DNA of 64,000 nt from positions 186,001 through 250,000 of the forward strand of contig VLTN01000029.1 in assembly GCA_008330645.1 (NCBI GenBank), given 5' to 3'. The stretch is from Cafeteria roenbergensis. Its lineage: Eukaryota; Sar; Bigyra; Bicosoecida; Cafeteriaceae. The translations under genes and the position numbers were made by a program. This document shows, piece by piece, positions 2 through 64,000 of the stretch (its first letter is position 1; the number at the start of each line of letters is the position of its first letter). The notes under the pieces are model-generated. The model did not search any database. It saw only the letters and a program-made list of their open reading frames with translations, and was not told the origin of the DNA.

Positions 2-3000
2 ATGGTGCGGCGATCGCGCCTGCCGGCGTCGACTCCCGACCTGGACTCGGACATCGGCCACCTCATCGACGCGACGGCGGCCGACTCCGCGTCGGTGGAC
101 GACGCCGTGGGGGACCTCAACGGGGACCAGCCGTCGCCTCGGCGGCATGAGCCGCTCCCGCCGCGGAGGTCCCCCGACCGCGGCGGTGCAGCTCCGCGGG
201 CGTCTCTTGACAGCTTTGCGTCTCTCGGCAGCGAGCAGCGCAGCCCCCAGCGCGCTGCGATGCACACTCCCGCGATCCTGTCAGACGGCTACGAGGCCCC
301 CCCCGGGGCCCCCCTGTCGCACCTGTGCCTGCTGTCGTTCTCCCTGGCAACGGTCCGCAACCTCAGCGCGGAGCACGGGTACCAGGCGAGGCTTTTGGCG
401 GCTGGCTGCCTGCCCAGGGTGCTGGAGGTGTTGCAGCCGCACCTGCGCCCGGGGCAGGACGCCGCCACGCTTGCCGCCGCCGCCGCAACCACCGCGGCGA
501 CTGCGGGGCCCGCGGCCAGGGCCCGTGCCCGCCGAGGGCAGGCGGGGCCCTCTGCCGCCGAGGAGCGGGCCCGCTGGGACTGCCCCTACCCGCTCCACTG
601 CGTGGCCGACGCCATCCACGCCCTCGCGAACCTCGCTCACGACCCGAGCTGCAGAGTCGAAATCGCAAAGGGCGGCTCGCTGGCGGCGCTTGTGCCCGTG
701 GCGGAGGACGCGCCCAACAGCGTGCTGGCCGTGGCCCTGGTCCGAGCGCAGAAGGAGGCCGTGGCGGCGTACAGGGCCCGCGCCGACGCCGAGCGGCGGG
801 CGCGAGAGGCCACGGAGCACGCTGCCCGGCTGGTGGCGGAGTACGACGCCGGTGCAATGACCCGGGAGGAGCGGGAGGAGGTCAGGCGGCTGGCCGGCGG
901 GGACGCCGGACGGGCCGGGTCGGCAGCCTCGTCCAGCGACGACGCCGCGGGGCTGGGCGGCGACGCTGGCGCCGGCGGCGGCGCGGGCGGCGGCGCGGGC
1001 GGCGGGCCGCTCCGTCGCAAGGCTTCGCGCCCGGCCATGGGATTCGCCGTTGTGCGGGGCCCCCCTCGCCAGCCTCCGTCGTACAGCGGCTTCGCGCATG
1101 ACGGTGGCGCTGCCGCTGGCTCTGCCGCTGGCTCTGCTGCTGCTGCTGCGTCCGGCGCGGGGGCGGGGGCGGGGGCGGATCAGGCCTCGCCCGCGGCCTC
1201 CAGCTACTCGTCGGTGTCCCACGGCGGCGGCAGGCGGGCGGGGAGCAGTTCCAGGCGTGACTCGGGACGGTCCGTCCACGGAGATGGACGGACGTCCTCG
1301 CTGCCGGCCGCCCGGTCGCGCGCCAACCTGGGGCGCGTGGGGTCGCGCGCCAAGTCTGCGCCCGTCGTCGACCAGACTGACGTGATCGACGCGGCCACGG
1401 AGCTGCGGGTGCGCGCGCTGGTGGCGACGGCGTTTGAGGCGCGCACCCAGTGCGCGCTGGCTCTCTCCACCATCGTGTGCGCGGAGGACGGGGTGCGGCT
1501 TGCTGGAAGCGACGCCACGGACGCTGCCGCCGCCGACGAGTTCCTGGGCATGGGGGTGCTGGATGCGCTCAACGCCCTTTGCAAGTTCGGGAGCGACGGC
1601 GACGCCATCCGGGGCCAGGTGGTCGGGGCCATGCGCTCCCTCTCCCGCTTCGAGGGCGTCGCCGCGTCCATGCTGCACCGGCGGAACCTCCTGGATACGC
1701 TGGTTCGGATGCTGAGTTCCAGCGTCGACTCGGCGCGCCGTGAGGCCGTTGCCGTCATCTGCAACCTGAGCCAAGTCTCGGGTCTCGAGATGCGTCTCGT
1801 GGAGGCCGACGTGGTGCCCGCCCTCATGGTGGCGGCCCTGCTGCGAACCCACGACCCCATCACCCAGGCCCGCTGCATCCAGTCGCTCCACAACCTGCTG
1901 GCGTCGTCGGAGGCGCGGGTCAGCGTGCTGGGCGAAGGCGTCATCTGGGCGCTGCAGCGGCTGGCGCTCAGCACGGACCGTACCACCCAGCGCTGCTGCG
2001 CCGTCACGCTGCACCGGCTTGCAACGGACAGGGACGCGCAGAGCGTGCTGGTGCGAGAGGGGGGCGTTCGCTCCGTGATCAGCGTGCTGCTGGCGGCCCA
2101 CGGCGAGGACGAGGACGGTGACGGCGGCCCGGCCAACGGGCCTGCGGGCGCGGTGGCGGGCGCGGGGGCCGGGGCTCGCCCAAGGCCTGGGCAGCGCAGC
2201 GCGGCGGCGATTGAGCTGAGCTTGTCACCGTCCCCGCCCGGCTCTGCCAGCACCGCGGCGACGTCGGCCGCGGCTGGAGGCTTCCGCCCCACGGCGCCCC
2301 CGGGCGCGCCGCCGCTCGGTGCCGCATCGCTCGTGGCCCAGCCGCGCGCGGCCGGGGAGCTGGAGCAGCTGCGAGTGATGGACGTTCTCAACGGCGCGCG
2401 GCGCCCTCGTGGCCGGCGCGTCAGGCCGCTGGCGCCTGCGGCTGGGGCAGTGCGGCCGTCGTCATCGGCCTCGGCCGCTGCAGCCACCGCCGCGGCACAG
2501 AGCCGCCGGAAGCCCGCCAAGGGTGGCCTCGGTCCGGACATCAGCGCGGCGCCGGAGGCCCTGGCGGCCGCCGCCCGAGCCGGCAGCGGCGGCGTCGGCG
2601 GCAGCTCCACCGCCGCTGCCGGCACCGGCTTCGGAACTGACGACGAGGAGATGAACGCGGCCGAGGCGGCGGGGTCGGACCCCGTCGTGGGAGCCCACTT
2701 TGCGGGCGTGCTTGCGGCGGTTTCGCGGGAGCCCGGCAACGAGGCCAAGCTGGTCGCGGAGGGCGCGGTCGAGGCGCTGGTGCTGCTGTGCGAGGCATCC
2801 TTCCGAGGCAGCCTCGGCGGCGTCACGCCCAACGCCAGCGCAGGCGCCGGCGGCGGCATTGATGCCGGCGCAGCGACGTCCGCGGCCGCGGCCTCGCCGG
2901 CCGCGGAGCACGATGAGTCGCTGGCCGGGGTCAGTGCGTCCATCACCAGCCCGTCAATGACTGACCTCCGGCCGTCGTGCGCAGTGGGGCTGTTCAACCT

Positions 3001-19130: not shown

Positions 19131-19403
19131 GCAGGCAGCCTGGCTACGGCTGCGGGGATGAGGCGAATCCAGGAAACGCCGCTGGTGGCGCTCCTTGTGC
19201 AAGCGGCGCCAGACACGTCTCCGGCACAAATCGCATATTGGCCACTACGCAAGGATACGTGCCGCAGCCCGTCACACTGCGCCCCGCTTGGCCCAGTCTG
19301 CAGCACTCGCCCAGGAGACGCCAAGCACAGTGTTCTCTTGCCTCAGGCCAAGCCCCAGGCTGGCAGGAGGCGCGGCGGTGGGGCTGCTGACGCAAGCAGG
19401 GCT
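19131..19403. promoter_or_regulatory. Shared divergent promoter region
   Basis: 273 bases separate the ATGs of two divergent signal-peptide genes, the GH28-like gene (minus) and the 2175-residue gene (plus). It includes a relatively AT-rich patch near 19225-19255 (CGCATATTGGCC). No named promoter element is certain; the shared-promoter role is inferred from the layout. Confidence 0.45.
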
Positions 19404-52400: not shown

Positions 52401-54806
52401 GTCAACCACCACTGGCAGGCCGGGCCCGGACGGGAAGTCGGGGGGAGGGGCGGCGGTTTCGCGGGAGTCACTCTCCGAGTCGGATGATGCATCCACCATC
52501 GCGTCCGCGTCCGAGTCAGTCACGTCCGCATCGATTTCCTTGTCACAGTCGACCAGGAGACTGGCCGGTGACTCGCGCGTGACTGCACCAGCGTGCCCCA
52601 TTGCCATCAGCGCCCGCAGGCCCTCCCTGCGATCGACCAAGGCATCCTGCAGCGAAGACGCAGCTGACGGCCCGGCCGGCGAAACCGCCAGCATGCCGCT
52701 GCGCGGCTGAGCGGTTCCCGCCCGGGGGGCGCGCCCGACGGCAAGCAGAGCCGCCGCGCCGACGCTGGAGACACTTCCCTCGGCCATACACTTCGCGAGG
52801 GCTCTGCCGACCAGCTCCACCGGGAGCGACCCCAGCGTTGAGGCAGGGTCCAGGCCCAGCGAGGCCGCGCCGACGGCGGCAGGCACGGGGCTTCCCGCCA
52901 TGGAAAGGGCACCCGAGAAGGCGACGTCAGCGGCCGGAAGGCAGGGGTGGCTCGCGGGGCTCGCGGCGGGGGACAGCTCTGCCCCCGGCCCCAGCCCGCC
53001 AGCCGGCGGGTGGGCCAGCGTCGCGCCGTCACTTGCCAACAACGGCAGAGCGGGGACGCCCCGGCGTGACCGCACGGCGCTGGGCTCTGCCGCGTCGCTC
53101 CCCGAGTCGCTCCCCGCCCTTTCGGCAGAGCTCTCTGGTCTCAAATCCTGTCCTTCGAGGGCCTTGAGTGACTCCGCCGCACGCACGATTGCCTCTGCGG
53201 TTTCGCGAACGAGGGTCGCTCTGGCTTCAGCAACCTCGTCGCCCGTCGCCCAGGCAGCGCCGCCAAAGGGCGTGGTTGGCGGCCACGGGTCCTCGCCACC
53301 CGCAGCCGGCTGACCGGAGGCTCTGCGGTGGCGGCTGGTGGTGCCGGTAGCGTTGCCGCTCGAGGCGCTCGAGGGCTTGACCCTTCGGAAGGATCGGACC
53401 TGCTTGAACTGCGTAACCGCTCGAAGTGTGGCAACGGCTCTGTCGGGACCCCGCAGGACAGCAACGGCGCCGCTGCCCGCCACCCCCACGGCGTCGATGC
53501 GCGCGGCCCAGGCAGCGTGGCCCGCGGAAAGCGGGCGGTCCGTGCCAGCCGCGGTGGCGGCGTCAGACGAGGCGTCGGTTGCGGCACTGCCGCCCGGCGG
53601 CGGCGGCGCCATCCCCACGGGCCGCGCCAGTCGTGTGGGCACTGCCCGCGGGGCAATCACGGGAGGCAGGAGCGACCCGTGACGCGACCGTTCGGGGGTG
53701 CCGCCGCGGCCGCTCGTGACGCTGTCCTTGGAGCTAAACTGGAACTTTCCCGGAACGCTCGCTCCCGCCGCGGCCGCACCAGAAGCCGCCGCGGGCGCGG
53801 CGGGGGGCGCCGCCATTGGGCGAAGGGGGCGGGGCGCAGCGGAACCCTTCGGCGTCAGGGCCTTGTCGGCTTCCGCGGCGGCATGCATGGCCGAGGACAA
53901 GGCCTGCCCGGTAATGCCCGACGCCGCAAGCTTGGCGGTCATGGCCACTGCGTGCGAGCGGGAGCGGCCAGCACCGTGCCGCCGGGAGGCCGGGGACAGG
54001 GCCACGCTGAGGGTGGGCGGCGGCGCGCGAACGCGACTCATTCGAGGCCCGGCCCTCGATTCCGCAAGCCCGTCCTCGTCATCAGCGCCTGCAGGGCCCA
54101 CGCCCGCCGCAGCCTCGAGCGAGTCTTCGCTCGGGCCCTCGAGCTGGTCGTCGGCTGCGCTGACGACGTCGGCCTCGGCGTCGCTGCCGGCCTCGCCACC
54201 GCCGCCGTCGGTTGCAATGCGCACGCGCGCGAGCCTCCCGCTCCCGCGGCCGCTGGAGCCGCTGCCGGATGGAGCCTCGCCCTCCCACACGTGCGGCATT
54301 GCCTGCACGCATGCCTTTGGGGCGCGCGTGCCGGCGGCATCGTCTGCTGCTGGCTTGGGCGCCGCCAGGAGCGCCTTGGCAACTGCCCGCGCAGCGGCGC
54401 TCAAGTCGCCCTCGGCGCTCGCGGCGGACCCGACGCATAGACACCGCAGCACGCCCTGCACCGCTGTGAGGGCCTCCGATGCCGGAAGGGCCGCGTCGGT
54501 CGCGCGCGCGCACGGCCAGGCTGCCTCGGACAGCGGCAACGCGCTCGCCCGCTCGTCGGCGCCAAAAATCAGCGAGTGGACGCCAGTTGCGAAGCGAACA
54601 TATTCGGCGCGGGGCACCCCCAGGCCGGGGCCGGTCCGCAGCGATGACGCCAGCGCCTCCTGCGGGCGGGCAGATGCACGTCGGCTGGCGGCGGGGTCGG
54701 GGGCACGGCTGGAGGGAGAGGACCGTTCACTTGGCAAACAACGGAGCGCGGCAGTGCGTCCGCTCACAACGGCACCGAGGTCGTCCACGAGAGGCGCGTC
54801 CGCCAT
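34437..54806 (-). CDS. Giant adenylate-kinase-like/CPV-module protein (AK9/CPC1-like architecture, degenerate)
   Basis: 6789 residues in a single 20.4-kb exon. The ATG at 54806 (context GCGATGG, MADAPLVDDLG) is preferred to an in-frame ATG at 55025 in weaker context. Most of the chain is Ala/Ser/Gly-rich spacer. Recurring islands are recognisable. Adenylate-kinase-like segments lie at about 1155-1188 (LPAERVAPLLASEAL, GSGFVLQGW), 3666-3693 (GWVLTGVPATASAW, GIVPDRVVLLD), 5035-5070 (VPPSRVVVLR) and 5590-5626. CPV modules lie at about 3300 (FCPVALATEGRLVRG), 4634 (CCPVALAEEGVRVPG), 5244 (ACPVQ), 6261 (ACPVQW) and 6421 (ACPVEL), each followed by an F/L-C...RF..NP-like end. From memory, this combination is seen in AK9 and the ciliary central-apparatus protein CPC1. 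No intact GxPGSGKGT loop was found, so kinase activity is doubtful. An axonemal structural role is inference. Confidence 0.72.
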   Translation of the reverse strand: MADAPLVDDLGAVVSGRTAALRCLPSERSSPSSRAPDPAASRRASARPQEALASSLRTGPGLGVPRAEYVRFATGVHSLIFGADERASALPLSEAAWPCARATDAALPASEALTAVQGVLRCLCVGSAASAEGDLSAAARAVAKALLAAPKPAADDAAGTRAPKACVQAMPHVWEGEAPSGSGSSGRGSGRLARVRIATDGGGGEAGSDAEADVVSAADDQLEGPSEDSLEAAAGVGPAGADDEDGLAESRAGPRMSRVRAPPPTLSVALSPASRRHGAGRSRSHAVAMTAKLAASGITGQALSSAMHAAAEADKALTPKGSAAPRPLRPMAAPPAAPAAASGAAAAGASVPGKFQFSSKDSVTSGRGGTPERSRHGSLLPPVIAPRAVPTRLARPVGMAPPPPGGSAATDASSDAATAAGTDRPLSAGHAAWAARIDAVGVAGSGAVAVLRGPDRAVATLRAVTQFKQVRSFRRVKPSSASSGNATGTTSRHRRASGQPAAGGEDPWPPTTPFGGAAWATGDEVAEARATLVRETAEAIVRAAESLKALEGQDLRPESSAERAGSDSGSDAAEPSAVRSRRGVPALPLLASDGATLAHPPAGGLGPGAELSPAASPASHPCLPAADVAFSGALSMAGSPVPAAVGAASLGLDPASTLGSLPVELVGRALAKCMAEGSVSSVGAAALLAVGRAPRAGTAQPRSGMLAVSPAGPSAASSLQDALVDRREGLRALMAMGHAGAVTRESPASLLVDCDKEIDADVTDSDADAMVDASSDSESDSRETAAPPPDFPSGPGLPVVVDPSSDGGAAGAMAAALGGVVADAAAPGGAAASVRASAAAAALPTLPLDDRPEAALPAAGAASRGASDGADADADGPAAVVAALRCDADRAAQALAGSMEEGLAARTPLEADTANSGLPVRLWVTESVCGGDGGADGRRAADDEGRAADDEGRAALPADALRTSVSSAARTAAVAAGLARAAGARLLRPEEVLADAVSASIADWRLRRERWVADRHAMACDAAVEAAEAQARVQGAVSAIRSAEAERASAAAKLLAEQQRKTPRSKAVAAAKAALSRAEAAAETAQSDLEAASCARAAAVSSARASPAEGLKAPGAWPAPCRDVSEMDKGPEWILPSGKPGPAPQTAGETAAAVLLRGGALPAERVAPLLASEALRAVEEGSGFVLQGWACDDDGAPEAGDGSAAKEAWSLRVAVSELLARKQAGRAGVAATTATRPVVSRADLAEPRWELSADGELMPAAGAPSPEPAAAAGTQSAPTPSSSSSSSSSSSSSSSAAAAAAASAADWSAWPVPGRHRTLSRADISAATAVSQAAGRRYWWHVMPNAVAGVAVSREDITAPSVPKGPAVPGTPPPSSPITSATSTTPPLADGGGRPLLDPVTGRRWTPAELAEALRRGLVAPPAPATRREFGWRALPGALPGALPGVGRGDAASLRRGSLRAGQGWPVPPLAASDGPSLGVSGAALHGEGAAASAAAAASLVPLLQPFAGQRTLHEMVARRTVDGSVTGISLADDALVMGARRWLLAAEGSDGSAEELDDNSAAAELLGQLLRRQPTHDDGGFASLTRDEVTGRAIAGRVLGPVLSDLLRREAAEAEAEAEAEAEAEAEAEAEAEAEAAAGDADGDAAGANRAMPGGDAAAGSERRSQALSQRFREARAAALFRLVGSGAISAASAASHQAIAESGGAWALDVASAAEPFAAHASAGEIGPAAGSPASVRGSAVAALADAALGSSPGLIARTLRARLSAAAALLRAGTAQGMVVPRVLVALPDMADVGMTGAARSGSGSGSGSGSGSGPVTVAGVPVSVLRRAVAVVSTSDFNGSADVFGKDLAGWRAWRAAAVADSDPISAASVAFRAMQSSAASMTDRPSAPGAVARGLERFERAEAEAEAEAIAKAEAAAKSSTASAAAAGSVAAGGSGGGGGRRASAIAQSEADDMRMRSLRGASGQQTSTTDSDADNTTVSATATATVEHKDASERLPAGARAPGSLPSGAALAPLAWLRASVVDGRMTTSHVVLELASRLALPLPGSLLRSAVSPASLVCDGSASALSATYQQCVTAAVEFAHTSAAGSRRLALPPSMVVNAARLLPRSARLVLAGRRDAAELAEESRWVEVALLAALRAAGKTSSADPGDGDGGDGAGVWDDADLDQLEASSGSGRAGRGSGSGNAGDDGEDGDGEDDEEDGVGVLGPRLRALRQAASAAEAGFKGLARKPVASAARAPKQAPPQPRLGAQPASWESLIAPSALAGSDVVARLLQDGLDRRSGSASGSAAAKAVRELTSEVTATRFLLLAGSSDVGSAAVSSAGRAAGGAARLAAAFAVEAATAAAAERVRARESADGETAAHRAGGEGEPSGPDGHRVDGDVDGDVDGDVDGDVDRDGAGPSQEEEDEEEAADEAVALASLSRALRAVKAGRATGWAASVSIGTSLSAVRWLARLAAALIGDDDAASGAGEAASAAASSADESNHASIIRQSLLDLAESLSDPGLAAVSATAQSWIPRGWPLERDGALRWGEPVTHGVVRSACGGVAPAPLRQVPFSGVLAVSARPGPLPALLPPAPMDVDDADAGSGFGPSADDMAATDMLGSAVEASSAAAAASRTLAAQPSTSAAAELAAAVLRGAAGPGYGDNGDGDGDDDGDDGVGDDSDDAGQIDGWGSLAASWPYQSDVSGRASSKPPRPGRRFAVGGIGAAAGEAFAADAAEPFGDEEEEEEEEEGSWPVVALPALPKCKVAGWCETPVAVSRAGMTLVLGAFASARADERRRRRGRAAVSRDSGADEDGEASASGRSAADGAAVSRASAVARMQAAAIANEAVSRQLLGPLRGPGGDGDTTPSPESEQWRRSTHLAARALSGSAEASSACLRGFLSSIASPWSSAGASAARSLGQRVAAAVAAAAVGAEAERRLAGPRAKTAKQKRAAEAARPAQEAAVSRARRVLQAFAEGGAFHGIASSIVGVTGAAALAGSAALVSGTTSAAGGDGWAAGGEGAPVIAFPPRARAVAAAVAAGGLSGPCAVQSPWEGAEAAALVLGGVTGQAVMGSRLGSARAVMAAGPGAVKAGAAWQDSSVSGAELPLPGTEWASTSMSADAADATGADAELDALVMEREDVAAASARTGAHADADAGGKAGADDARFGGADLWAAATALAEAEDETDEPASFWPAPVELGEGSDQLAVWSGAASAWSDLGSAVQGETRAAALSLAGSVRVPGRAVTGVNASIGAGAQAGSSADSRGRVVPAFVRAAGCPGVAGRALRRRAKEHTSWLCRRHWSSFGRFCPVALATEGRLVRGHVRLAAEWKGSVVLCSTPLRLEALLRNPAAWMSRAAAMPLGARVAVSGPVGPLVDGLAAQAVASLRAAAARTSAVAGSGSAGVAARAAAGDAHSLDVLRSTNAGSAHVAEAWPMVDAVGAVRSAVEGRSQGSAGSAGSAVSDASLDPVVALLRDQLTRNGGAAADGVVAAVLAAHLSAVQGRHAATAGPAGDGVLTRGPSSGIEARIAAAAAALAEQKQSDDEVDRRVAELTERRGAKRCRVAVARDQARADVIEAWNRFERLAADRAWALLEAVEEGPEGPVWALPGQGPVTAPVGGGEAAISGAGGRLGGVGSAGSGSNSAREAAGAGAESGAESGAESGAGGGGGGGGWVLTGVPATASAWRAVLRTGIVPDRVVLLDPTIGMGAPEGDLSARGLTPHARSRRAWLRASRFDCRARVGGTALPPDGVDAGADDDAEWWSLASAAVAELPRGGVERSPSGHAGGAGGFGNPDPSEEEEGEEDDDDIGEGFGGGNRAGASGEDPDDVEAGGPVARALSTPVPSLPRSWDAAAPGQSATPALHTALRETAASNGSMVSVWDPLARAELQSEWPWSDGSAGRATSVGDAPSAALTGRLASVGTAGDGDDDEGETAGAGKDVDAEDEEDHHAVAAVSSLTRAFGPVAGGILPSDPSGRTDKAGGWAEDDVRPPAVSWRLERDAEAWGPRSPAIDQGGEDDDADAVGSAGSRVAERRWAAGTGQSRSREFALRSGAAVAAAGETALSRHAFVVASSLGVTAAAASLRGGSGDGSAAAAAAGGSADGSADGSADAATGEQRGPLSDVASLRPAEPQRGVVSPSSAALRLWRHEVSRVERLLSRYGVDVVRVPCGPGILFADAALAAAAAVDPIGAGAASLSAEPSLMLPGNPAAQLLAPGAGAALGAVALASGGVGAGAGAATGGADREPDGGLAAASPPVQASVTAAACGLLPEARVALAAAEAGGAAAALEQEGDRAAAAAGAAAYQLAASSVAGAPAAGVDADEDDDPDEVGGFADTNEPGNSGAGASAAGYDGEIDGSAGRAVDLETAAAAAAEEATAAAAAALGDSDGDASAGRAAPASAGASGDAASAAAGGFDADALLAGGAAFSWLTQPDGAAAAEEEEDGAAAEAASARRSALGSARVDSLRLAVSAARSSASALAVAVSAGTVAGAVGGAEAEESADVQAAWDASGADVDAALAAAMAAAAEASADAVSRVNAAIDEASAAAHAASGISEEDVGAPAAPGAALAGNPAKPLVPALEAAELPDGAADALVDGEEAAADSAGEWAAGVSLGDVEAIAPRGEAVLALLAEPPVCGRCCPVALAEEGVRVPGSGRHTVSVGGWLFRCAGPAAAARFALCPAHFISRLFVMAEGSALPDLAWSTSHPSSRWWAAARCARLRPALPGLSRPVAAAGAGVGAGAGAGVGGATLGVGAVSDSTGQFAALPGARVLVVVQGSADAAAADVAVRRAAGEAGLGVADVVGRMRSLDAEFARSERLDALLHASLQRAVRQSRRAVRVCKQLRKALRALERARRQQADEMAEEEEEEGEGEEQAAATLAARGRRRNASGRGATGDGKGMEGLSSAERAEVEPDVRLALALSAAAADAAAATSSARRLAAAEAALRRGRAVSVRASDLSGEALHTPCGEGGGSAAAGSGDIPESAAMLALREADAGRCAIDEGQGGFASASVEWRSSWFPAPATLRAALRAEFSANPSGCVVSASSLHRPLDASLALELIRLRVPPSRVVVLRGKGGIDDVTRAWTARAVAAALPADVPSRPSPALLGWALAEAKRAATSAWTEASRAVNALAAAGVPMGRVIRAALPAEPMRRSTSRRAFRALWVEASHRLSSALQAAAFAEGGGSANMAAAAGAVACGSAGGSNVLFGKGPGASSAGSWAGAVLPPWVALRLWRAGRIRLGPWGLACPVQAAAAAVSATAGGAAVASGAALARAASGGGEAGRGSVPRRTAPSVAGSDSAVAARASSALLASQAGSAARPLGDASLVVVVGRTAFCLSGPEAAKRFAANPWPFLAAPASMAAAAAAVGWAGDGATRAGRAIAALVAGPPGSGVLAAAGRAARGAAAGPGDAPTSDAMVMEGSSALLWVARSAAVRDCALRRRVRRALLLGELPWSVEPATFAGRGGTFARSSVPALAGIGAAAAAGLVPRGAWEALQVGGPEPPTARSATPASGPASAPSSASAPASAPGSGSGSGASAAATLSAELEADAIGLRLTGAAVRPASGLAAAAASAVWSGSGSSGAGSAAVAGITACAVAVSDAASLTAILDRLRSRWNVRPASTIVVRMSDRQCVDQQQRDLQSHGALLAGRGAPRTRARPPGVLRPALPAAALRRLVGGAALEAAAGGGFAPDDDGEADVDASDATSFQLDRQLCPPTLGAAEHIRLAELASLDATSGMSKPVRRAAVSAAVARAREQGGAVAYSRCAAPVAGVDAEAMEAALSSVALPDYQADDEDDVDDVDDATAAAAAARDNASVTASGRATAASAAAAGARAVMVAAARAAADLPWADASLAGVTGETAAELTLSGGAFSAACVAALGNRGAVKRWMAGSVEGSASDAAFGLRGWDATAEPIAVLAAADDDDDNDADDETDAEAAAAAAAASGAGESVTAGSGFRILPAAGDVGGVGGGAVWIGPRGGFTALPIGGLAACGVFRSGAWGLAGRAFEESEDSAAAGAGGAAAAAAAATGAAAAADDAAAVAEADEAALEAGTALPGLTLPSAGSGSALQSWRRVGAKWVAEPCLADVVARERGGDIVTTLATVAAKPPAGPDSAADGGSASSGPGPALEGAPLGLPGGLTPLGVPPRAFHDGVATALSGSWPVDPSLGRAWTTIALQRYRIAEAALLAELSRRGLPVSVVGPNGTSAGSGSATEVAAAAARSVSATAIALACGSAALAASLLPLASAELALLASAALQSACPVQWEERRGVVYSAEPSFPGAGREGSAGRMALARVQAASARRQGLVLFRGRALFASTSSLGALLAATPTSYLSGPGAVLPQALPMVVQEPIPGDALLAESPAGLRVGPGDNAPVAPPSLIAAAAKAAGLAALPAGVAALPAGGQPLQRLRPGLQLALGGACPVELVDAWRRALGTAGWQRGGSAGRPAFAVAFGRDASTGLRRLWWLSSRAAVSRFVRDAESFVTHPAAAVTPVGLPPDRKRVPSLNPGAAVSRPSVAGSASSAADPAPVGLSGLAGLAEATTGTAVSAALEAYAEVRSSLRHPSINTRSSALAFLSLHLRAHNPHLRPADRARARRRLEQFVAECRAARRQAARGVTAAEPGKAAAGAAPEAAAGAAAGEDRPRPHRPSLPASSAGAGAAAGRSVVRPRLVERAPSGLGVGSRGGKAAGAATAGRQGVSPRQARVSHSESKDSSVSEASRFAPAARRPRAPAGGKPLALGGAAGASGRQVAFPVEASGRGSDASATEFDRLATRSTAATGQWLRRG
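41730..41765. repeat. 36-bp perfect palindrome in coding sequence
   Basis: GAGATCGACGGCTCTGCC followed immediately by its exact reverse complement. It is built around two facing copies of the window-wide word GGCTCTGCC and encodes EIDGSAGRAVDL in the giant protein. Confidence 0.95.
47602..47658. repeat. 12-bp tandem repeat (GTCGACGTCCCC type)
   Basis: About five units inside the giant gene, read on the minus strand as repeated DVDG tetrapeptides. Confidence 0.85.
49894..49972. repeat. (GCCTCC)n microsatellite encoding Glu-Ala dipeptides
   Basis: About thirteen hexamer units inside the giant gene, read as an (EA)n helix on the minus strand, followed by a Gly/Asp-rich segment. Confidence 0.9.
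50923..50968. repeat. (GAC/GAT)n microsatellite encoding poly-Ser
   Basis: A trinucleotide run inside the giant gene, read as poly-serine on the minus strand. The same trinucleotide class encodes poly-Asp in the kinesin, where the other register is used. Confidence 0.88.
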
Positions 54807-55491
54807 CGCGCTCCAAGCTGTGCACAAGGGTGCGCCTGCGGGAGTCGGGGAGCGGGTCTCGGCGCGGACGATTCTGCTGCTCGTGGGCGGGGGGGGCGGG
54901 CGCGCTCGAGCCGAACGGCAACGGCAGCAGCGGCCCCTTCCCGCTACCCGCTCCTCGCTGGGCGCGCAGCGCGCTCTGCTGCGCCTGCCACTCAGCTGGC
55001 CAGCAGCACCACTGCCTGTTCCCATGCGCTCCGGCTGCCAGCCAGCCCGCCCGAGCCGGCGCGCCGCAGGCAACCATGTTCACAGTTGGCTGGCCCGAGC
55101 GCCGCCCCGCTGCTCTCCCGAGCTGGGCCCACCGGGCCCGAGATGCCACGCAGGTGCAAGGCTTGCTCACTGTTGCTGCCGGGCTCGCTGCAGCCGCGCC
55201 GCTCCTCAACGCACTGCCTAGGCCAGTGCTTGCGTCGCGATGATCTAGTTCGCGCGCGCAGATTCGGAGGCTGAGCAGAGTAACTGTGCGTGCGCAACTC
55301 TGGCCTGACACCGCAGGCACCGCGCGGCCAGCAACGCCCGAATCCAGCGGCGCAGCGGCCTAATGCGGTAACCAACGAGCTGACAAGGACCAAGCTAGCG
55401 CACCGCACAGCGGGTGCGGCAGTGAGGGTGCCGTCGGTGCCAGGGCATGCGCTCGCGACCTCAGGGACGCGCCAGTAGGGCCACCAAACAC

Positions 55492-56199: not shown

Positions 56200-56270
56200 A
56201 ACTTGAGCCACTCGGTCAATATCGGTCCTTCACCAGCACGCGGCCTCTCAACGTACACACGGGTCAGCAG
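56200..56270 (-). repeat. Right arm of the imperfect inverted repeat, overlapping a gene 3' end
   Basis: Its reverse complement reads CTGCTGACCCGTGTGTACGT and so on, the counterpart of 55492-55563. It covers the last codons and the stop of the CLU/TPR gene (56248-56250). Confidence 0.65.
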
Positions 56271-59200
56271 CTATAGAACCTTCCTGCAGCTCCATGCCCT
56301 CGTCATTGGGCCGCGGGGACTTCCGCTTGGCGGACGTGGCCAATGCTGGCCTGGCGGCGTCGTTGACTCTTGCTCGCTCTCCGGTCCCGGTGCGTGCACC
56401 TGGCAGCCCGGAAGCCTCGCCACTGGCGCTTTTGACACCCATGCACCGCGACAAGGTGGCTTGCGTGCTGCGCACCCGCGGGTGATCGTCACCAAACGCA
56501 CCACGCTCGATGCGCAAGCACCGTTGCAACAGCTCCAGCGCCGATTCGGCCTCGCCCTTTTGCATGTGACACCGCGCCATTGTGAAGAGGGTATTCGCAA
56601 ACGACGGGTGGTCCTCGCCCAAAGACGTTGCGTAGCCAGCCTTGCAAGTCTCCAGCAGATCCAGTGCAGCGTCGTACTCGCCCATCTGCAGTCGGCACTG
56701 CGCCATCGCATAAAGCGCACGCACCGTCGTTGGGTGAGTTGAGCCCAGCGACAAGCCGTAAGTTGTGGAGCACTTGCCCAACAGAATCAACGCCGCATCG
56801 TAGGCGCCCTTGGCACGATGGCTGAGTGCCATGGCAAAAAGAGTAGCTGCCCTGCTTGGGTGCAGTTCACCAAGCGACGAGGCCTGGATGCCCTCACACC
56901 GTTCCAACACCTCCAGCGCAGCGTCGTGCTCGTCTTGAGCTTGCAGGCATTGGGCCGTTGCGAAGAGCGAGCGGCCAAACTCAGGATGGCGCTCGCCGAG
57001 CGACGACGCGCTCACGTCGCTGCAGTGCCTGAGAAGTCGGAGGGCCAAGTCGAAGCTTCGGCATTGCATATGACACTGCGCCATTGTGTACAGCGTGCGT
57101 GCATATCCAGGGTGGCCCTCCCCCAGTGCCGAGGCCTGAATGTCCCTGCACCGCTCCAGCAGGCCAAGCGCTGCATCGTACTCCCCCTTGTGCATGCGAC
57201 ACTGCGCCATCGTGTACAGCGTGCTTGCGAAGGTCGGGTGCTCCTCGCCCAGCGACCAGGCCTGGATGTCCCTGCACCGCTCCAACAGCACCAGCGCTGC
57301 ATCGTGCTCGCCCTTGTTTCGTCGGCACTGCGCCATCGTGTACAGCGTGTTCGCGAAGCTCGGGTGGTCCTCGCCCAGAGCCGAGGCGTAGATGTCCCTG
57401 CACCGCTCCAGCAGGCCAAGCGCCGCATCGTACTCCCCCTTGTTTCGTCGGCACTGCGCCATTGTGTACAGCGTGCTTGCGAAGCTCGGGTGCTCCTCGC
57501 CCAGCGACCAGGCCTGGATGTCCCTGCACCGCTCCAGCAGCTCCAGTGCCGCATCGTACTCGCCCTTTTGCATGTGACACTGCGCTATCGTGGCCAGCGT
57601 GTTCGCGAAGCTCGGGTGCTCCTCGCCCAGCGACCAGGCCTGAATGTCCCTGCACCGCTCCAGCAGGCCAAGCGCCGCATCATATTCACCCTTGTCCATC
57701 CGACACTGCGCCATTGTGGCCAGCGTGCTTGCGAAGCTCGGGTGCTCCTCGCCCAGCGACGAGGCCTGAATGTCCCTGCACCGCTCCAGCAGGCCAAGCG
57801 CCGCATCCCACTCCCCCTTGTGCATGCGACACTGCGCCATCGTGAACAGCGTGCCCGCGAAGCTCGGGTGGTCCTCGCCCAGTGTCGAGGCGTAGATGTC
57901 CCTGCACCGCTCCAGCAGCTCCAGCGCCGCATCATACTCGCCCTTGTCCATCCGACACTGCGCCATTGTGAAGAGCGTATTCGCGAAGCTTGGGTGGTCC
58001 TCGCCCAGTGTCGAGGCGTAGATGTGCCTGCACCGCTCCAGCAGCTCCAGTGCCGCATCACACTCCCCCTTGTCCATCCGACACTGCGCCATTGTGAAGA
58101 GCGTATTCGCGAAGCTTGGGTGGTCCTCGCCCAGTGTCGAGGCGTAGATGTGCCTGCTCCGCTCCAGCAGCTCCAGTGCCGCATCATACTCGCCGCGCTC
58201 CAACAGGCGAGAGGCACTTCCGCTTAGCCTCGAGCCCAGTGCATTGCCCCCCTCCGCTCCCTCGCTCAGCCCCGCCGCCACCAACAAGCATAACACCTCC
58301 AAGGCCCCATCCGAAGACGCCCGAGCGCAGGTCTCCGACAGCGAATACAACGCGCTACCTCGATGGTGCCGCCACGCCTCGCCGCTCAGTCGCTCGCACA
58401 GCCTCAAACCGCGCAGCTGCGACGCGATCATGCGCTCTGCCAGTCCCGCTGAGTCGTTTCCGAACGACAGTGCAGTGCCTCGCCGCTCGCTCTGCGCGCC
58501 GGACCCAGACACCTTCACGCGCCGCCCGCACTCCCGCTGCATGGCCGCCCACGCCTGTGCGACAGCACACCCGCTAGCGGCCGCTTCACAGCCTACCAGC
58601 ACCGCCGTCGCCATCGGCACGCCGCGCCCCCTGGCTGCCACGCCTCGGGCCACGCAGCACGCCAGCAGCCAGTCCGCATCCGCGTCGGCGCCGCCCGCAG
58701 CTCCCTCTGACACCAGACACTCCAGCGCCGCCGCGCCGCTCGACCCGGGACTCGGCAGGCCGGCGCACGCCGCAGCGGCGCGCAGCACCGATGGAGGCAG
58801 CCCCACACCACTGGGCTCCCCTGCTCGGCTCAGCATCGCGCCCAGCACCCGCCACGCGTGTCGCAGCCCCAGCCCGCGGGTGTGAAGGCCGGCCTTGACC
58901 GCTCGCCGCACCGAGGCCACGTCGTCGCCCTGCCCCGCTCGCCCGCATGCGGCGAGCTGCTCCTGCACCGCGTCCGCCGCCCGGCCCACGTTGTCGGCGC
59001 CCAGCAACACCCCGCCCGCCGCCACAAGCCTGTCCATCGCGTGACCCTCTGCAACCGCGCCACGGGCCAGCACGACATCGGGTGACACCGGCTCCGCCCC
59101 CGCCTCCCGCAGCACGGCCGCCGCCTCGGGACGGAACAGCGCCGTCAGGTGATCCGCGCGCCAGCGCTGCTCGGGCCGCGGCAGGAGCACTCGAATCGCC

Positions 59201-60879
59201 CCGTCGCTCGACTGCATCACCGCCACCCTGCAGCACGACGCCAGCGGGCCCAGCTCAACCTCGTTCCACGCCGGAGCGGTGCCACCGGTCAGGAGCCCAG
59301 CCTCCCGAGCGGCCAGCGTGGCCAGGGCAGCGTCAGCCGAGCCGCCCTCCGGCAGCCCCACCACTCGCAGCACCGGCGAGGACGAGGTCGAATCATCCAC
59401 AGCTGTGCCGCCACATTCGCCATCAGCGCCAGACAGGGCCCCAGGCGCAGCGGCCCACACGACCGCAACCTGGCCACCCGCCGCCTCACCGCCGCCGGTC
59501 ACGTCGGGGATGCACAGCCGATGCGTGTCCAGCAGCACCACCTCGCCCCACGGCAGCGCGTGCAGTTCCACGTCGAACGGCAGACGACTCGGCACCCCAC
59601 CGGCATCTCTGGCCACAGTGGCGCTGTGCTCCGCGTGCACCGGCCGCAGCGGGTCCAGCACCACGCCGTGCTCCGCCTCCACCTGCGCGCACACACCCGA
59701 GCTCTCGGCCGCATGCCGGCCCGCCCCCACGCTCTCCAGCAGCGCGTCCGTGGCCGGGCCCAGCTGCGGGAAACTGTCCGGGTCTCTGTCGCCCCGCACC
59801 CTCCGGTACTCATGCCGGGTGAACAAACCTGAGCTGGGAGTCATCAGACTCGGGGCCAGGTGCAGCCCCGCCGCCAGCTCCTCCGCCACGCCGTCCAGCT
59901 CCGTGCACACGTGTGTTGTCCTCCCGCCGTCGCCCGACCCCACCCGCAGCGTGTCGCCGCCGACCGCGTGCCGCGAGAAGCCCTGCACGCGGTAAACTCG
60001 CTCCGGCCGACCAGCCGCGTCGCGCACCGTCACGTCCACGCACGACGCCAGCGGCACCGTCAGCAGCCGCGCCGCGTCCGCCTCGTGGAGGTGCGTGAGC
60101 ATGGCCAGCTCGTGCTTGGCCGGCTTGTCCGCCATCACTGAGGAGCCCTTGAAGATGCCCACCGTGTCCTCGGCGATCTTGAAAAAGGCCCCCGTGCTGG
60201 GGTCGGCCACCTTGACGCCGCCCGCGATGCCTTCGTTCACCACTCGGAGATTCTCGCCGCCCCGCAAGCGGCCCACGCACTCCTGCGTGATGGCCTGAAG
60301 CGTCCTGGCGTCGCCACAGCGCTTGCGCTGCTTGGCGTCGTGGAAGGCCCAGGCGATGGCGTCGGCGGCGCCCTCGGTGATGCGCTGGAAGGCCTGTCTC
60401 ACACCAGCCAGCTCCTCCAGGCGCTCCTGGTGGCCGTGTGCGGTGAGCGTGGGCTTGTTGCGGAGGCGCGCGACCTTGTCGCCCATTGACTCACGAGAGG
60501 GCATCTCTGAAGCGGTGGGACCAAGTGCGGCTGCCTGGTGTCCAGTAGACACCTCTGGGTACCGGCCTGCGTGCTGCTCGAGCGCGCGGCCCGAGCAGCA
60601 AGCATCGCAGACGCTGGCCAGGGCCGCCTGGCTTGCCTCGCCACTGGCCGTGGCCTTGTACGGTCTAGCACAGCGCCTATCGCACCCGTCGCGCCCAGTG
60701 GGAACGTAGACGTGCTGCCGTGCGCTTGGCCGCCCAGCGGGAAAGCGAGACTCGCTGGGCGCAACAGCGCCTGTCGAGGCCATGGGCGCCCCATCCGGAG
60801 AGCATTCCGGTCTGCCTGGGTTTGCCGACCAAGCAGTACGATCTGAGCACGGTGCTACGCCAGGCCCAGCCCCGTCCAT
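56248..60879 (-). CDS. CLU-like domain protein with 14 kinesin-light-chain-type TPRs
   Basis: 1543 residues. The ATG at 60879 is chosen for its strong context, GCCATGG; an in-frame ATG at 61002 would add 41 residues. The region at about 255-460 resembles the CLU domain: KHELAMLTHL, then VPLASCVDV, TLRVGSGDGGRTTHV (about 308) and LLDTHRLCIPDV (about 447). A later GLGLRHAWRVLG (about 667) recalls the H.RGINVRYLG motif of CLU proteins. Residues about 896-1483 are fourteen tandem 42-residue TPRs of the type GEYDAALELLERC, with ...LGEDHPSFANTL in the second helix. CLU/FRIENDLY proteins bind mRNA and govern mitochondrial distribution, and they end in such TPRs. Assignment to that family rather than to a generic TPR scaffold is inference. 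The C-terminal residues IAADPCVR fall in a repeat arm. Confidence 0.85.
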   Translation of the reverse strand: MDGAGPGVAPCSDRTAWSANPGRPECSPDGAPMASTGAVAPSESRFPAGRPSARQHVYVPTGRDGCDRRCARPYKATASGEASQAALASVCDACCSGRALEQHAGRYPEVSTGHQAAALGPTASEMPSRESMGDKVARLRNKPTLTAHGHQERLEELAGVRQAFQRITEGAADAIAWAFHDAKQRKRCGDARTLQAITQECVGRLRGGENLRVVNEGIAGGVKVADPSTGAFFKIAEDTVGIFKGSSVMADKPAKHELAMLTHLHEADAARLLTVPLASCVDVTVRDAAGRPERVYRVQGFSRHAVGGDTLRVGSGDGGRTTHVCTELDGVAEELAAGLHLAPSLMTPSSGLFTRHEYRRVRGDRDPDSFPQLGPATDALLESVGAGRHAAESSGVCAQVEAEHGVVLDPLRPVHAEHSATVARDAGGVPSRLPFDVELHALPWGEVVLLDTHRLCIPDVTGGGEAAGGQVAVVWAAAPGALSGADGECGGTAVDDSTSSSPVLRVVGLPEGGSADAALATLAAREAGLLTGGTAPAWNEVELGPLASCCRVAVMQSSDGAIRVLLPRPEQRWRADHLTALFRPEAAAVLREAGAEPVSPDVVLARGAVAEGHAMDRLVAAGGVLLGADNVGRAADAVQEQLAACGRAGQGDDVASVRRAVKAGLHTRGLGLRHAWRVLGAMLSRAGEPSGVGLPPSVLRAAAACAGLPSPGSSGAAALECLVSEGAAGGADADADWLLACCVARGVAARGRGVPMATAVLVGCEAAASGCAVAQAWAAMQRECGRRVKVSGSGAQSERRGTALSFGNDSAGLAERMIASQLRGLRLCERLSGEAWRHHRGSALYSLSETCARASSDGALEVLCLLVAAGLSEGAEGGNALGSRLSGSASRLLERGEYDAALELLERSRHIYASTLGEDHPSFANTLFTMAQCRMDKGECDAALELLERCRHIYASTLGEDHPSFANTLFTMAQCRMDKGEYDAALELLERCRDIYASTLGEDHPSFAGTLFTMAQCRMHKGEWDAALGLLERCRDIQASSLGEEHPSFASTLATMAQCRMDKGEYDAALGLLERCRDIQAWSLGEEHPSFANTLATIAQCHMQKGEYDAALELLERCRDIQAWSLGEEHPSFASTLYTMAQCRRNKGEYDAALGLLERCRDIYASALGEDHPSFANTLYTMAQCRRNKGEHDAALVLLERCRDIQAWSLGEEHPTFASTLYTMAQCRMHKGEYDAALGLLERCRDIQASALGEGHPGYARTLYTMAQCHMQCRSFDLALRLLRHCSDVSASSLGERHPEFGRSLFATAQCLQAQDEHDAALEVLERCEGIQASSLGELHPSRAATLFAMALSHRAKGAYDAALILLGKCSTTYGLSLGSTHPTTVRALYAMAQCRLQMGEYDAALDLLETCKAGYATSLGEDHPSFANTLFTMARCHMQKGEAESALELLQRCLRIERGAFGDDHPRVRSTQATLSRCMGVKSASGEASGLPGARTGTGERARVNDAARPALATSAKRKSPRPNDEGMELQEGSIAADPCVR
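56431..58194 (-). repeat. Fourteen 126-bp tandem TPR units
   Basis: Each unit encodes one 42-residue TPR. Units 1-9 (58194 down to about 57060) are near-identical at DNA level, while units 10-14 are clearly diverged. This pattern suggests recent expansion or gene conversion within the upstream block. Confidence 0.92.
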
Positions 60880-61275
60880 GGCGCCCGGGCGCACGCAAGT
60901 GCTGCAGAATGTCCCCACGCGCGAATGGAATTCAGAGTTGAGACGAGTGAGGTGAGAATTGCCGCCCCTATTCGAGACACAAACCTGAGGGCGGACTTGC
61001 ATGACCGTCACTCCCCGGCAGCAAGCCAAGCCGGTGCACCCCAGCGGCTTGGTGCACGGGGATGCGAGCTGTGTGGTGGCTGGCTCGGTGAGCCATGAGG
61101 CGAGGCCCGCAAAGGGTTGCTGCGCACCATATCGAAAAACGCGCGCGCGCAGCTTCAAAGCTCCACACAAGGCAAGCAAGCTTTGGCGCGCCGAGGCACG
61201 TACGAGGGCGGGGGGCGAACATCCTAGCGCACACCAAGACCATGCGTCCCCGTCGTGGTCCGATCACAGTCTCAT
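60880..61275. other. Spacer upstream of the CLU/TPR gene
   Basis: 396 bases between two minus-strand genes. It should hold the CLU/TPR promoter and the 3' flank of the coiled-coil gene. No distinct element was recognised. Confidence 0.5.
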
Positions 61276-64000
61276 TCAGCGCGACCGCCCCAGTGCAGGC
61301 GAGTGGCGCTGGCCCGCCCTCTCGGGTGAGGGTCCTTCCCGCATGCTCCCGGGGCTGTGGCGAGCGCTCGCCGACCGCCTTGAAATGCTCGTGGCAGTGT
61401 CCTGGAGGTACCCGGTCTGCAGGCGGCGAGCCAAATGCGCCGGGAGCGGCGCTTGCGTGGCGTGGGCCGATCGCTGCCGACCCTCGCTGCGGACGTGAGC
61501 GCGTGCCCCAGCAAGCAGCCTGGCCGATCGCTGCGAGGACTCCCCTCCTCCCCCGCCACTGCCACTGCCACTGCCACTGCCGCGGACGCCACCGGCCCTT
61601 CGCACACCTCCTGGCAAGCTCTCGGCGGCAGTGGCGCCAGCCTGGTCTGGCGCGCGTCGCCTGCCACCGCCGACCCTGGCAGCTCGACCAGCCGGCGATC
61701 CGGCAGCGGCTGCCAAGGGCCCGGCCGGGGAGCTGGCCGGAGCACGGCGAGCGAGGGCAGCGCGGCCGTCATGGCCGGCTGCTGGCTCTCCGGCTGGCCG
61801 CCACGTCCGGTCATCGTCGTCGCCAGCGGCCCACGCCGCAAGCCCAGTGGCGCCGCCGCGCTGCGCCTCGTCGATCGCCTCGAAGGCGTCCAGAGGCGTC
61901 ACGCCGCGGCTCGCGGCTCTGCCGAGCATGCCGCTTCCCAGGGCCAGCGCGGCGTCTTCTGCTGCGGCTGCGGCCGCCCCGGCGCTCGGCAGCGGCTTCG
62001 CCCTGGACAACATGGTACGGAGCGCCGTCGCCTGCTCTGCACGAGAGGACGGCTGCAGCGCTGGCGCCACCAGCAGGAGCCGCGCCAGCTCGCTCTCCAT
62101 CGCGCTCTCCAGGCGCTGAGCAGCGGACAGCTCCCAGAGCCGCAGTCGCAGGCTGGCCGGCGACGGCATCGCCACACGCAGCAGACGAGCAGCCTGCTCC
62201 GCTGACCGGGGCGTGACCGGGTCGGGCCTCCGGCCAGAGCCGCTGGGCGGGTCTGTGGGCGAGCGCTGCACAATTCGCTCAAGCGCTGGCGCCGGCACCA
62301 TGCCCGCGCAGACGGCTGAGAGGTCATCCGGAGCCACGTCCAGCGCGGCGAGGGCGTTTCCTGAGAGCTGGAGCAGCAGGAGCGGCTCTGCATCCACGCC
62401 GCTCGGCTGGCGGTGGCCGCCCCTCGCCGCGGCACCAGCCGCGACGTCGCGCCCGCCAGCGCCGCCGCCCAATGGTTGCGGCTCGCTGGCATCGACCAGG
62501 CCGTCGGCGTCGCCCTCCTCCTCGTCCTCCGCGCTGAGCGGCAGGCGCAGCTCTCCAGCCCCAGCCGCCTCGTCGGAGAACCCCTCCGCCTCCCTGGCCG
62601 CGGCTTCGCTGCCGGGGGTGGCGGCGGAGGGTGCCCCGGCCCCTGCAGCAGCCCCGAAAGCGCCGCCCCCGACGCCGATGCCGATGCTGAAGTGCCGGCG
62701 GAACGCGGTCGCTGCCGCGGCATCCTCGGCCTCTGTCGGCTCTGCCATGAGCTGCGAGGACCACCACCCGACGACGTCGTCCACCGCCGTGAGGGCCGTC
62801 GAGCGACCCTCGTCCCCGCCCTCGGAGGCGGCCGCCGCGACGAACTCAGCCAGCCCGGAGCGCAGGTCACGCCCGCGGCCGGAACCGGTCGGCGCTGCAC
62901 CCGCCCCCTTGCCCGCACGGGCAGGCGGCCGTCGCCTCGGCGCAGAGCCACCGGCTCTCACGGCGTCGAGCCACGCGTCGATGGCGAGACCCGTCGCGCC
63001 AGGCATGGCCGCCGCCTGCTCCTCAGCCGCCACTGCCACTGCGAGGGCGGCGTTTCCGGCCACCGTGTCGTCGAGCCTGGACCGCGCCTTGTCCAGTCGG
63101 CGGGCAGCCGACGCCCTGTCGATGGCTGCCCGGGCCGCCTCCCGCTCCCGCTCCGCGCGCAGCGGCGCCAGCTGCTCTGCCGCAGCCGCGCGCAGCGTAG
63201 GCGCCACGCCTTCGAACCGGGAACGCACGTTGCTCCGCGCCTCCTCCACCGCCCGCTCTGCCTCGATGCGGGCGGCTTCCACAGCGGCCCTGCCGAGGGC
63301 TCTGCCGGCAGAGCGGCCCCGGGCTTCGGCCTCCTGCTTGCCGTCAGCAAGCGCCACGTCTGCGGCGTGCGCGGCTCGGCTGAGAGTTGCCCGAGCGGCG
63401 TCGCGTCGCTCAATCGCGGCGGACACAAGGGCCGCGTCGACGTCCCTCTGCCGCGCCAGCGCCGCGTGCAGCTCTGCCAGCGTTGCCTCCGCGTCCTCCG
63501 CCTGAAGGGTGAATAGGGAGGCCTCGTCGTCGGCCTGCTGCAGCTCTGCCTGCAGCGCGGACACGCGCGCTCGAACAAAGCCCGCCGCCCGCCTCGCCCT
63601 GGCCAGCAGCGCACCGTACCCCAGCGTGGCGGCATCGAGCGACGCCTCTGAGCGACGCCTCGACGCTGCGTCTTCGAGCACGGCCCCCTGGCGCAGCCGG
63701 GTCGTCTGCGCGCGGACCACGGCCAGCGCCATGGGGGACACCACCCTCGGCTCCATAATGGCAACTTCCGCTGCGGCGCGGCGCGCCAGCAGCGCGGCCT
63801 TGTCGGCCTCCGCTCGCAGCACTGACGCCCGCACGCCCGTTGGAAGCATGTGTGCTGGCAGAGCGCGCCGCGACGCCGCCGCCGCCGCCAGTTGCTGCTG
63901 GTGCTGGTGCTGGTGCTGGCGCTGCTGATAGCTGGGGCTCTCGCCGTCCTCGCCGTCCTCGCCGTCCTCGTCCGGGGTCCAAGCTGCCCGGGGTCTGACC
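61276..64000 (-). CDS. Coiled-coil protein, open at the right edge of the window
   Basis: The frame stays open from the TGA at 61276-61278 to the window edge. The first ATG inside is at 63849, but upstream codons still look coding (WTPDEDGEDGEDGESPSY, then a Gln/His run), so the start probably lies outside. From the internal ATG there are 857 residues. The first 270 or so are highly helical, Ala/Arg/Glu/Gln-rich and coiled-coil in character (ALLARARRAAGFVRARVSAL, AARIEAERAVEEARSNVRSR). The middle and end are low-complexity with a Gly/Ser run and a basic Arg/Ser-rich tail. No enzymatic motif, signal peptide or membrane segment is visible and no family is recognised. A cytoskeletal or ciliary structural role would fit the neighbouring giants but is only inference. 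The gene contains several GGCTCTGCC/GGCAGAGC words. Confidence 0.72.
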   Translation of the reverse strand, partial: VRPRAAWTPDEDGEDGEDGESPSYQQRQHQHQHQQQLAAAAASRRALPAHMLPTGVRASVLRAEADKAALLARRAAAEVAIMEPRVVSPMALAVVRAQTTRLRQGAVLEDAASRRRSEASLDAATLGYGALLARARRAAGFVRARVSALQAELQQADDEASLFTLQAEDAEATLAELHAALARQRDVDAALVSAAIERRDAARATLSRAAHAADVALADGKQEAEARGRSAGRALGRAAVEAARIEAERAVEEARSNVRSRFEGVAPTLRAAAAEQLAPLRAEREREAARAAIDRASAARRLDKARSRLDDTVAGNAALAVAVAAEEQAAAMPGATGLAIDAWLDAVRAGGSAPRRRPPARAGKGAGAAPTGSGRGRDLRSGLAEFVAAAASEGGDEGRSTALTAVDDVVGWWSSQLMAEPTEAEDAAAATAFRRHFSIGIGVGGGAFGAAAGAGAPSAATPGSEAAAREAEGFSDEAAGAGELRLPLSAEDEEEGDADGLVDASEPQPLGGGAGGRDVAAGAAARGGHRQPSGVDAEPLLLLQLSGNALAALDVAPDDLSAVCAGMVPAPALERIVQRSPTDPPSGSGRRPDPVTPRSAEQAARLLRVAMPSPASLRLRLWELSAAQRLESAMESELARLLLVAPALQPSSRAEQATALRTMLSRAKPLPSAGAAAAAAEDAALALGSGMLGRAASRGVTPLDAFEAIDEAQRGGATGLAAWAAGDDDDRTWRPAGEPAAGHDGRAALARRAPASSPAGPLAAAAGSPAGRAARVGGGRRRAPDQAGATAAESLPGGVRRAGGVRGSGSGSGSGGGGGESSQRSARLLAGARAHVRSEGRQRSAHATQAPLPAHLARRLQTGYLQDTATSISRRSASARHSPGSMREGPSPERAGQRHSPALGRSR

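Follow-up and report, generated by a model that had tools for sequence, protein, structure and literature searches.

A highly iterated word in the window and in the genome

The question raised by this locus is at which level, protein or DNA, a short word that returns throughout several of its long genes is kept, and by what. The window, by which we mean the whole stretch of 64 kb that was analysed, belongs to Cafeteria roenbergensis (a marine flagellate that later papers name C. burkhardae) and has a GC content of 70.9%. The four strains that have been sequenced share about 99% identity (PMC6972860). The core word GCAGAGC/GCTCTGC was found in 100 + 94 copies (194), against 28.3 expected from an order-2 Markov model for whose training the core word had been masked, and GGCAGAGCC/GGCTCTGCC in 45 + 38 copies (83), against 2.8. 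In 200 kb drawn from 20 contigs, GGCAGAGCC occurs 68 times versus 8.9 expected from the Markov model, and counts covering 36,303,456 bases in 167 contigs rendered 10,998 copies versus 994 for the same letters reversed, an imperfect control in that it holds two CpGs. The highly iterated word of the preliminary description is therefore real, and commoner than claimed, but it does not stand as the sole word, GCAGAGC being one of several. The letters read for this analysis, about 324 kb of one genome, comprise the window and three partly overlapping sets of fetched stretches, among which L021-L033 were picked for word pairs.

Among the titles and abstracts listed in literature searches, which did not extend to subscription papers, there was no clear precedent for such iterated words, and among papers pairing GCAGAGC with Cafeteria none was, by title, on the flagellate. 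The motif passages of PMC8547959 concern virophage promoters and a recombinase motif.

Word-rich and word-poor genes of the window

ORFs were taken as stop-to-stop frames and not from gene models, and each was compared with 200 synonymous-codon shuffles that preserve the protein and its codon counts and ignore codon-pair preferences. Among the ten ORFs of the window shuffled in this way, four lie above chance and six near it. The richest is a giant ORF of 6,878 aa (34437..55073, minus strand) with 130 GCAGAGC (shuffle mean 19.1±4.0, maximum 30), 61 GGCAGAGCC, 27 GCGGTTTCG and 7 TCAGCTGA. Searched in three pieces, it matched no Pfam family at E <= 0.01, which leaves the 'AK-like' label given to it earlier unsupported. 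It includes the cluster at 35865..36252, where exactly the nine core copies previously counted are present. The armadillo-like ORF (2..11782, plus strand), whose ARMC5-type ARM match is weak (34.0 bits, below the curated cut-off of 79.9), holds 31 GCAGAGC (mean 6.9, maximum 15), 15 GGCAGAGCC, 6 GCGGTTTCG and 2 TCAGCTGA, and an ORF with no Pfam match (61276..63849, minus strand) holds 11 (mean 1.5, maximum 5). In the kinesin gene (27506..31618, minus strand), correctly so named (Kinesin, E = 4.5e-64), word content is moderate, with 7 copies versus 2.0 expected, and the enrichment is borderline because the shuffle maximum is also 7. In the rich genes the counts fall far beyond the codon-shuffled controls.

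The remaining ORFs carry few words or none: 0 versus about 0.3-0.4 at 12202..15261 (minus strand), 1 versus 0.2 at 15997-17229, 2 versus 0.5 at 26001-27398, and 2 versus about 1.5-1.7 in the TPR/NPHP3-like ORF adjoining the giant gene (56248..61179, minus strand). The GH27-type (Melibiase_2) ORF (32049..33278, plus strand; 0 versus 0.3) and the long ORF at 19119..25931 (plus strand; 4 versus 3.3) are as sparse as had been described for the GH27 gene and for 19404-25931.

A word at the DNA level and not a protein repeat

In the giant gene, GCAGAGC occupies 130 of the 268 places at which the amino acids permit it, far beyond codon shuffles, and each of the six frame/strand classes is filled at 40-80% of its permitted places. 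The armadillo-like gene has 31 of 111 permissive places filled, and across ORFs the fill grades from 0.57 to 0, other rich ORFs reaching down to about 0.25. Expressed as log odds per permissive place (natural log), the preference is about 2.5 in the giant gene, 2.9 in an ORC2-like gene fragment and 1.8 in the armadillo-like gene; in two word-poor ORFs it is 0.2 and -0.95. Codon choice changes with the flanks: in 19 rich ORFs (89,958 bp), 83 of 188 AGA and 125 of 352 TCT codons stand between word flanks, versus 1-4% of the other Arg and Ser codons. Sense and antisense copies number 193 and 193 in 76 sampled ORFs, and in 12 rich genes the strand balance fits a binomial (p = 0.40).

These results uphold the view of a DNA-level word, read in differing frames and orientations, and refute a protein repeat, which would use a single frame and strand. 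Each of the eight coordinates earlier quoted for such readings has, within 12 bases, a word that is read as stated; the quoted position is displaced by 0-3 bases in six cases and by 7-8 bases at 6199 and 9706. Nevertheless, the protein seems to be affected as well. In the giant gene the tripeptides ALP (29 versus 8.3) and GSA (45 versus 19.7) are in excess in the order in which the word encodes them, and permutations of the word-encoded tripeptides are mostly lower; in the armadillo-like gene the excess is weak (GSA 22 versus 12.9, ALP 6 versus 5.1). Since it is the written order that is enriched, the influence of the word in the richest genes seems to extend beyond codon choice to the protein.

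Several words share the same genes

Sixteen rich ORFs (77,136 bp, 60 shuffles; trinucleotide-periodic words, and with them simple repeats, were skipped in the shuffle scans) were searched for strand-symmetric words, and the search gave GGCAGAGC (274 versus 24.8), GCGGTTTC (65 versus 5.2), GAGCGACGC (41 versus 5.8), GGAAGGAT (21 versus 1.4), CACTTCG (34 versus 10.4), GTCAGCTGA and some weaker words. GTCAGCTGA is a near-palindrome, so that its counts of 14 and 14 correspond to about 14 sites (summed expectation 1.4). The words were then counted in six stretches outside this discovery set, four of them on contig C12, a contig picked for the density of its word pairs, and two drawn from the 200-kb sample and themselves GCAGAGC-rich. 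Recurrence was seen for GCAGAGC 87 versus 17.5, GCGGTTTC 19 versus 1.85, GAGCGACGC 14 versus 2.18, TCAGCTGA 4 versus 0.75, GGAAGGAT 3 versus 0.23 and CACTTCG 11 versus 3.71. TGACGTCA (0 versus 0.21 in these stretches) was dropped, and TTGCAGTT was discarded as a tandem repeat. In L002 little was enriched apart from GCAGAGC and GAGCGACGC (2 versus 0.54). GCAGAGC reaches only 3 versus 1.2 in the 5' part of the ORC2-like gene.

Genome counts, which cover GGCAGAGCC, GCGGTTTCGC and GTCAGCTGAC, gave 2,499 copies of GCGGTTTCGC versus 249 reversed and 428 sites of GTCAGCTGAC versus 43. Among 76 ORFs of at least 300 codons in the window and the 200-kb sample, nine, seven of which belonged to the discovery set, are significantly GCAGAGC-rich (249 versus 42.2); four other words reach 101 versus 11.0 in the same nine, and 42 versus 5.4 without the giant gene. 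The remaining 67 ORFs still show a mild excess, both of GCAGAGC (137 versus 72.4) and of the four other words (38 versus 17.1). The lexicon thus comprises at least four or five words: GGYAGAGCY, GCGGTTTCRY, GTCAGCTGAC, GAGCGACGC and GGAAGGATC. In the 200-kb sample (L001-L020), TGTCGGAAA was also counted 16 times versus 0.5 expected, and CCCATCACA 15 times versus 0.7.

The first three words are sharp. One-letter variants of GGCAGAGC, GCGGTTTC and GTCAGCTGAC are mostly close to the shuffle expectation or under it, and the clear exceptions (GGTAGAGC 8.3x, GCAGAGCT 6.6x, TGCAGAGC 4.6x, GGTTTCAC 10.6x and GGTTTCGT 10.0x, those of GTCAGCTGAC resting on 1-3 copies) look like tolerated letters. For GGCAGAGC/GCAGAGCC tolerance is found at the ends (first base A or T, 3.3x and 4.6x; last base T, 6.6x), inner positions staying at or below 2.5x except for the third base (T 6.0-8.3x, A 2.2-3.2x). 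A looser pattern holds for GAGCGACGC and GGAAGGATC, of which several variants are enriched 3-8x.

Pair arrangement

Two cores of the main word show a preference for lying head to head across a 2-bp gap: GCTCTGC-NN-GCAGAGC was found at 202 sites, versus 23 for the opposite order with an equal gap, and the full 18-bp palindrome GGCTCTGCCGGCAGAGCC at 36 sites, versus 0 for its reversal. Among the sites listed the centre is mostly CG, CA or TG, so that a perfect palindrome is not required. In the window, such pairs lie at 36236..36251 and 40925..40940 (centre CA), at 51314..51329 and 63299..63314 (centre CG), and inside the 18-bp palindrome at 41740..41755 and 43120..43135; GCAGAGC-CA-GCTCTGC at 36050..36065 is the sole pair in the opposite order at that spacing. 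The fetched stretches other than L021-L030 hold 10 head-to-head pairs, two of them in L031, which was taken from a pair-rich contig, versus the usual 1-3 at other short distances. A head-to-head arrangement at fixed spacing would be expected from a DNA-binding protein that acts as a dimer.

At distances up to 30 bp, pairs in direct orientation are about three times as common as inverted ones (636 versus 92 + 117), and small local duplications therefore add some copies. Nucleosomal, helical or wider periodicity was not seen, the number of pairs per 25-bp bin declining gradually, from 63 to about 40 over 1.2 kb, and all 25 of the periodogram values listed lie at the long-period limit. A palindrome with any centre (GGCNNNGCC) was rejected as a model, the other GGCNNNGCC words reaching a ratio of at most 3.1 in the window and 1.7 in the 200-kb sample (2 copies each) versus 30.1 and 7.6 for GGCAGAGCC. 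So was a link to the letters of the tRNA D-arm, to which the word bears some likeness: neither a tRNA nor any Rfam match at gathering score was found in the window.

Word density from gene to gene

Density shifts abruptly between genes a few hundred bases apart. The ORC2-like gene on C12 has 26 GCAGAGC in 4.3 kb, and the nearest long ORFs on its two sides (511-1572 and 7202-10000) have 0 and 0, with 0.85 and 1.94 expected; a 522-base ORF just before it has 1. A CDT1-like gene carries 28 and a Rad4/XPC-like gene 9. Words lie within conserved domains too: density in the RecA-like range of ORC2, widened by 110 residues, is 6.0/kb versus 6.1 outside, in the CDT1 domain 7.9/kb versus 6.8, and in the ORC2 winged-helix and kinesin motor ranges above that of the rest, while the Rad4 domain range is poorer (1.6/kb versus 4.2). 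The three Pfam-nameable word-rich genes of L031-L033, ORC2, CDT1 and Rad4/XPC (L032:5459-9448, L031:2550-6812, L033:4100-7048), all serve replication or repair; other word-rich genes encode a kinesin, a PHD-finger and a MINDY-type protein, and the replication/repair set is too small to be tested as a class.

Long ORFs (228.6 kb) hold 385 GCAGAGC and the remaining 35.4 kb, which take in short exons and introns, 30, a twofold difference (1.68 versus 0.85/kb); for GGCAGAGCC the counts are 144 and 7. In L033, the 1,111 bases that belong to no ORF of 150 codons or more contain 4 GCAGAGC. Regions differ as well: among 100 direct pairs listed for contigs C1-C14, C12 has 22 and C2-C4 together have 7, and 13 of the 15 GTCAGCTGAC sites of contig C5 fall within its 663-882-kb stretch. 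The HSP70 matches on contig C154 include three that each contain one in-frame TGA.

GC3 was rejected as a cause of richness (rho -0.06 over 86 ORFs), and so were gene-end effects, there being only mild thinning at both ends. When the 86 ORFs were compared all against all, the matches were one pair of tandem paralogues and one case of overlapping loci; the rich genes are therefore not one family. The paralogues (L012:4303-5466 and L012:7774-9030) are about 82% identical in aligned DNA. They hold 2 words and 0, too few for an estimate of turnover, and one GCTCTGC corresponds to ACTCTGC in the other copy, a one-base difference that is too little to decide on an origin by substitution.

What could keep the words

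The words are enriched, strand-symmetric and shared by the same genes. We tentatively favour, at somewhat less than an even chance, their being a recognition lexicon for putative sequence-specific DNA-binding proteins on gene bodies, held by a weak directional force. Each word would be the binding site of such a protein, GGCAGAGCC being probably bound as a dimer, and the proteins may act on gene bodies in chromatin or in gene regulation. Weak selection for binding, with log odds of about 1.8-2.9 in three rich genes, would keep the words against mutation and override the choice of codons as well as, in the richest genes, some of the amino acids. Several results speak for such a lexicon: the enrichment over shuffles and reversed words with about half of the permissive places filled in the richest genes, the other words and their recurrence in the validation stretches, the head-to-head pairs and their palindrome, the mostly unenriched near-misses of the three main words, the contrast between the ORC2-like gene and its neighbours, and a density in the conserved ORC2 and CDT1 domains on the whole no lower than outside. 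Against it count the tens of copies per gene, far beyond the need of ordinary regulation, the mild excess in the 67 other ORFs with its graded fill, the words outside ORFs, the poorer Rad4 domain and the copies added by local duplication. It is also possible, with a lower probability, that the lexicon amounts to a second code, symmetric between the strands and written into the bodies of chosen genes of a eukaryote, which is read in the DNA, is dense enough to shape protein, and marks the gene for a shared chromatin, replication or repair state.

The chief alternative is a drive, along the lines of Elhai's mismatch-repair model for HIP sequences, in which gene conversion or mismatch repair is biased by a sequence-specific protein in favour of word-bearing alleles; the words are then a by-product from which no benefit is needed. 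We consider this rather unlikely, though well ahead of the explanations below. It agrees with the directionality of the words, most near-misses being without excess, with their spread into tripeptides in the richest genes, with one-off tolerance mainly at the ends, as in HIP1, and with the regional differences. Such a bias would have to differ sharply between neighbouring genes, however, and to act through several unrelated words on the same genes. The PF01555 methyltransferase family, the only one searched for, gave 0 matches in the genome and was found in 11 of 14 control genomes, which makes a methylation-based origin somewhat less likely. Selection for binding and biased conversion or repair predict the same static pattern and are inseparable with one genome; selection is slightly preferred on the ground that the densities of several words vary together from gene to gene.

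Context-dependent mutation that creates the words directly is improbable. It would account for the strand symmetry, but it needs raised mutation toward several 8-10-mers from their one-off neighbours, and mainly in some genes, and it would not easily produce the head-to-head preference.

Still less probable is a signal in the RNA, with sense and antisense words pairing within the mRNA. The higher density in long ORFs and the gene specificity would fit, as would the enrichment of GGTAGAGC and GCAGAGCT, C-to-T changes that retain a G-U pair. Yet the A-to-G wobble variants GGCGGAGC (27 versus 38.9) and GGCAGGGC (28 versus 29.3) are unenriched, and GGTAGAGC and its complement GCTCTACC, of which only the former makes a G-U pair with the main word, are balanced on the sense strand (8 and 6). 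Moreover, per-gene strand counts fit independent draws, and the orientation-specific pairs with a 2-bp gap are left unexplained.

Dispersed short insertions or decayed repeats have very little to recommend them. There are some in-frame direct tandem copies, and a few near-misses are enriched by the cruder Markov control (GGCAGAGGC, 35 versus 9.0 in the 200-kb sample), but against synonymous shuffles the near-miss GCAGAGGC reaches 33 versus 25.6. Neither homology beyond the word nor decayed copies were found; conservation is slight past about two bases on each side of the seven-base core, and words sit within conserved domains. Most near-misses are unenriched, and neutral decay of inserted copies would enrich them broadly, which argues against this origin. 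Finally, a protein repeat, codon usage or base composition can practically be dismissed: words do favour alanine/glycine-rich contexts and their 1-kb counts rise with GC (Spearman 0.33), but all six frame/strand classes are used, the excess persists against codon- and composition-preserving controls, codon shuffles refute it for the rich genes, and word-poor ORFs have a GC3 similar to that of rich ones.

Comparison with known systems

HIP1 and similar iterated words occur in bacteria, and what purpose they serve is still under debate. HIP1 (GCGATCGC) and the alternate HIPs of cyanobacteria are described in PMC4390886 as a short GC-rich word iterated genome-wide with one-off variants tolerated mainly at the ends, and both likenesses hold here. 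A directional origin without function has been put forward for HIP1, with mismatch repair as the mechanism in Elhai's model (PMC4390886). The comparison with HIP1 made at the outset is therefore a fair analogy, up to a point: here several unrelated words share genes, density goes gene by gene and the host is a eukaryote. GGCAGAGCC, GCGGTTTCGC and GTCAGCTGAC are all far above chance genome-wide, and deviations in GGCAGAGC/GCAGAGCC are concentrated at the word ends, the third base excepted; GTCAGCTGAC is a palindrome, and GGCAGAGCC and GCGGTTTCGC are not, in a 36.3-Mb genome with kinesin, ORC2 and CDT1 genes. Membership in the HIP class thus fails on palindromy and host; the words may work in a HIP-like manner.

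The purpose of iterated words becomes testable in a eukaryote that has several of them, with densities differing from gene to gene and a dimer-like arrangement; since word-rich genes adjoin word-free ones, a single genome allows them to be compared in binding, modification, recombination and expression. Such a case would also demonstrate a force at the DNA level of sufficient strength to extend into conserved protein domains. DNA uptake sequences (DUS/USS) and Chi are further short iterated words of bacteria, Chi being strand-biased; the words described here resemble them in being short and iterated, but are strand-balanced and gene-specific. Duons, or exonic transcription-factor sites, are DNA-binding sites that constrain codon choice within coding sequence, and codon choice is shaped by a DNA word here too, as the AGA and TCT codons between word flanks indicate. 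Unlike in duons, a small number of words is repeated tens of times in a gene, about half of the permitted places of the main word are filled in the richest genes, and strings of amino acids are enriched along with the codons; the occupancy by protein, which defines the sites in duons, is here putative.
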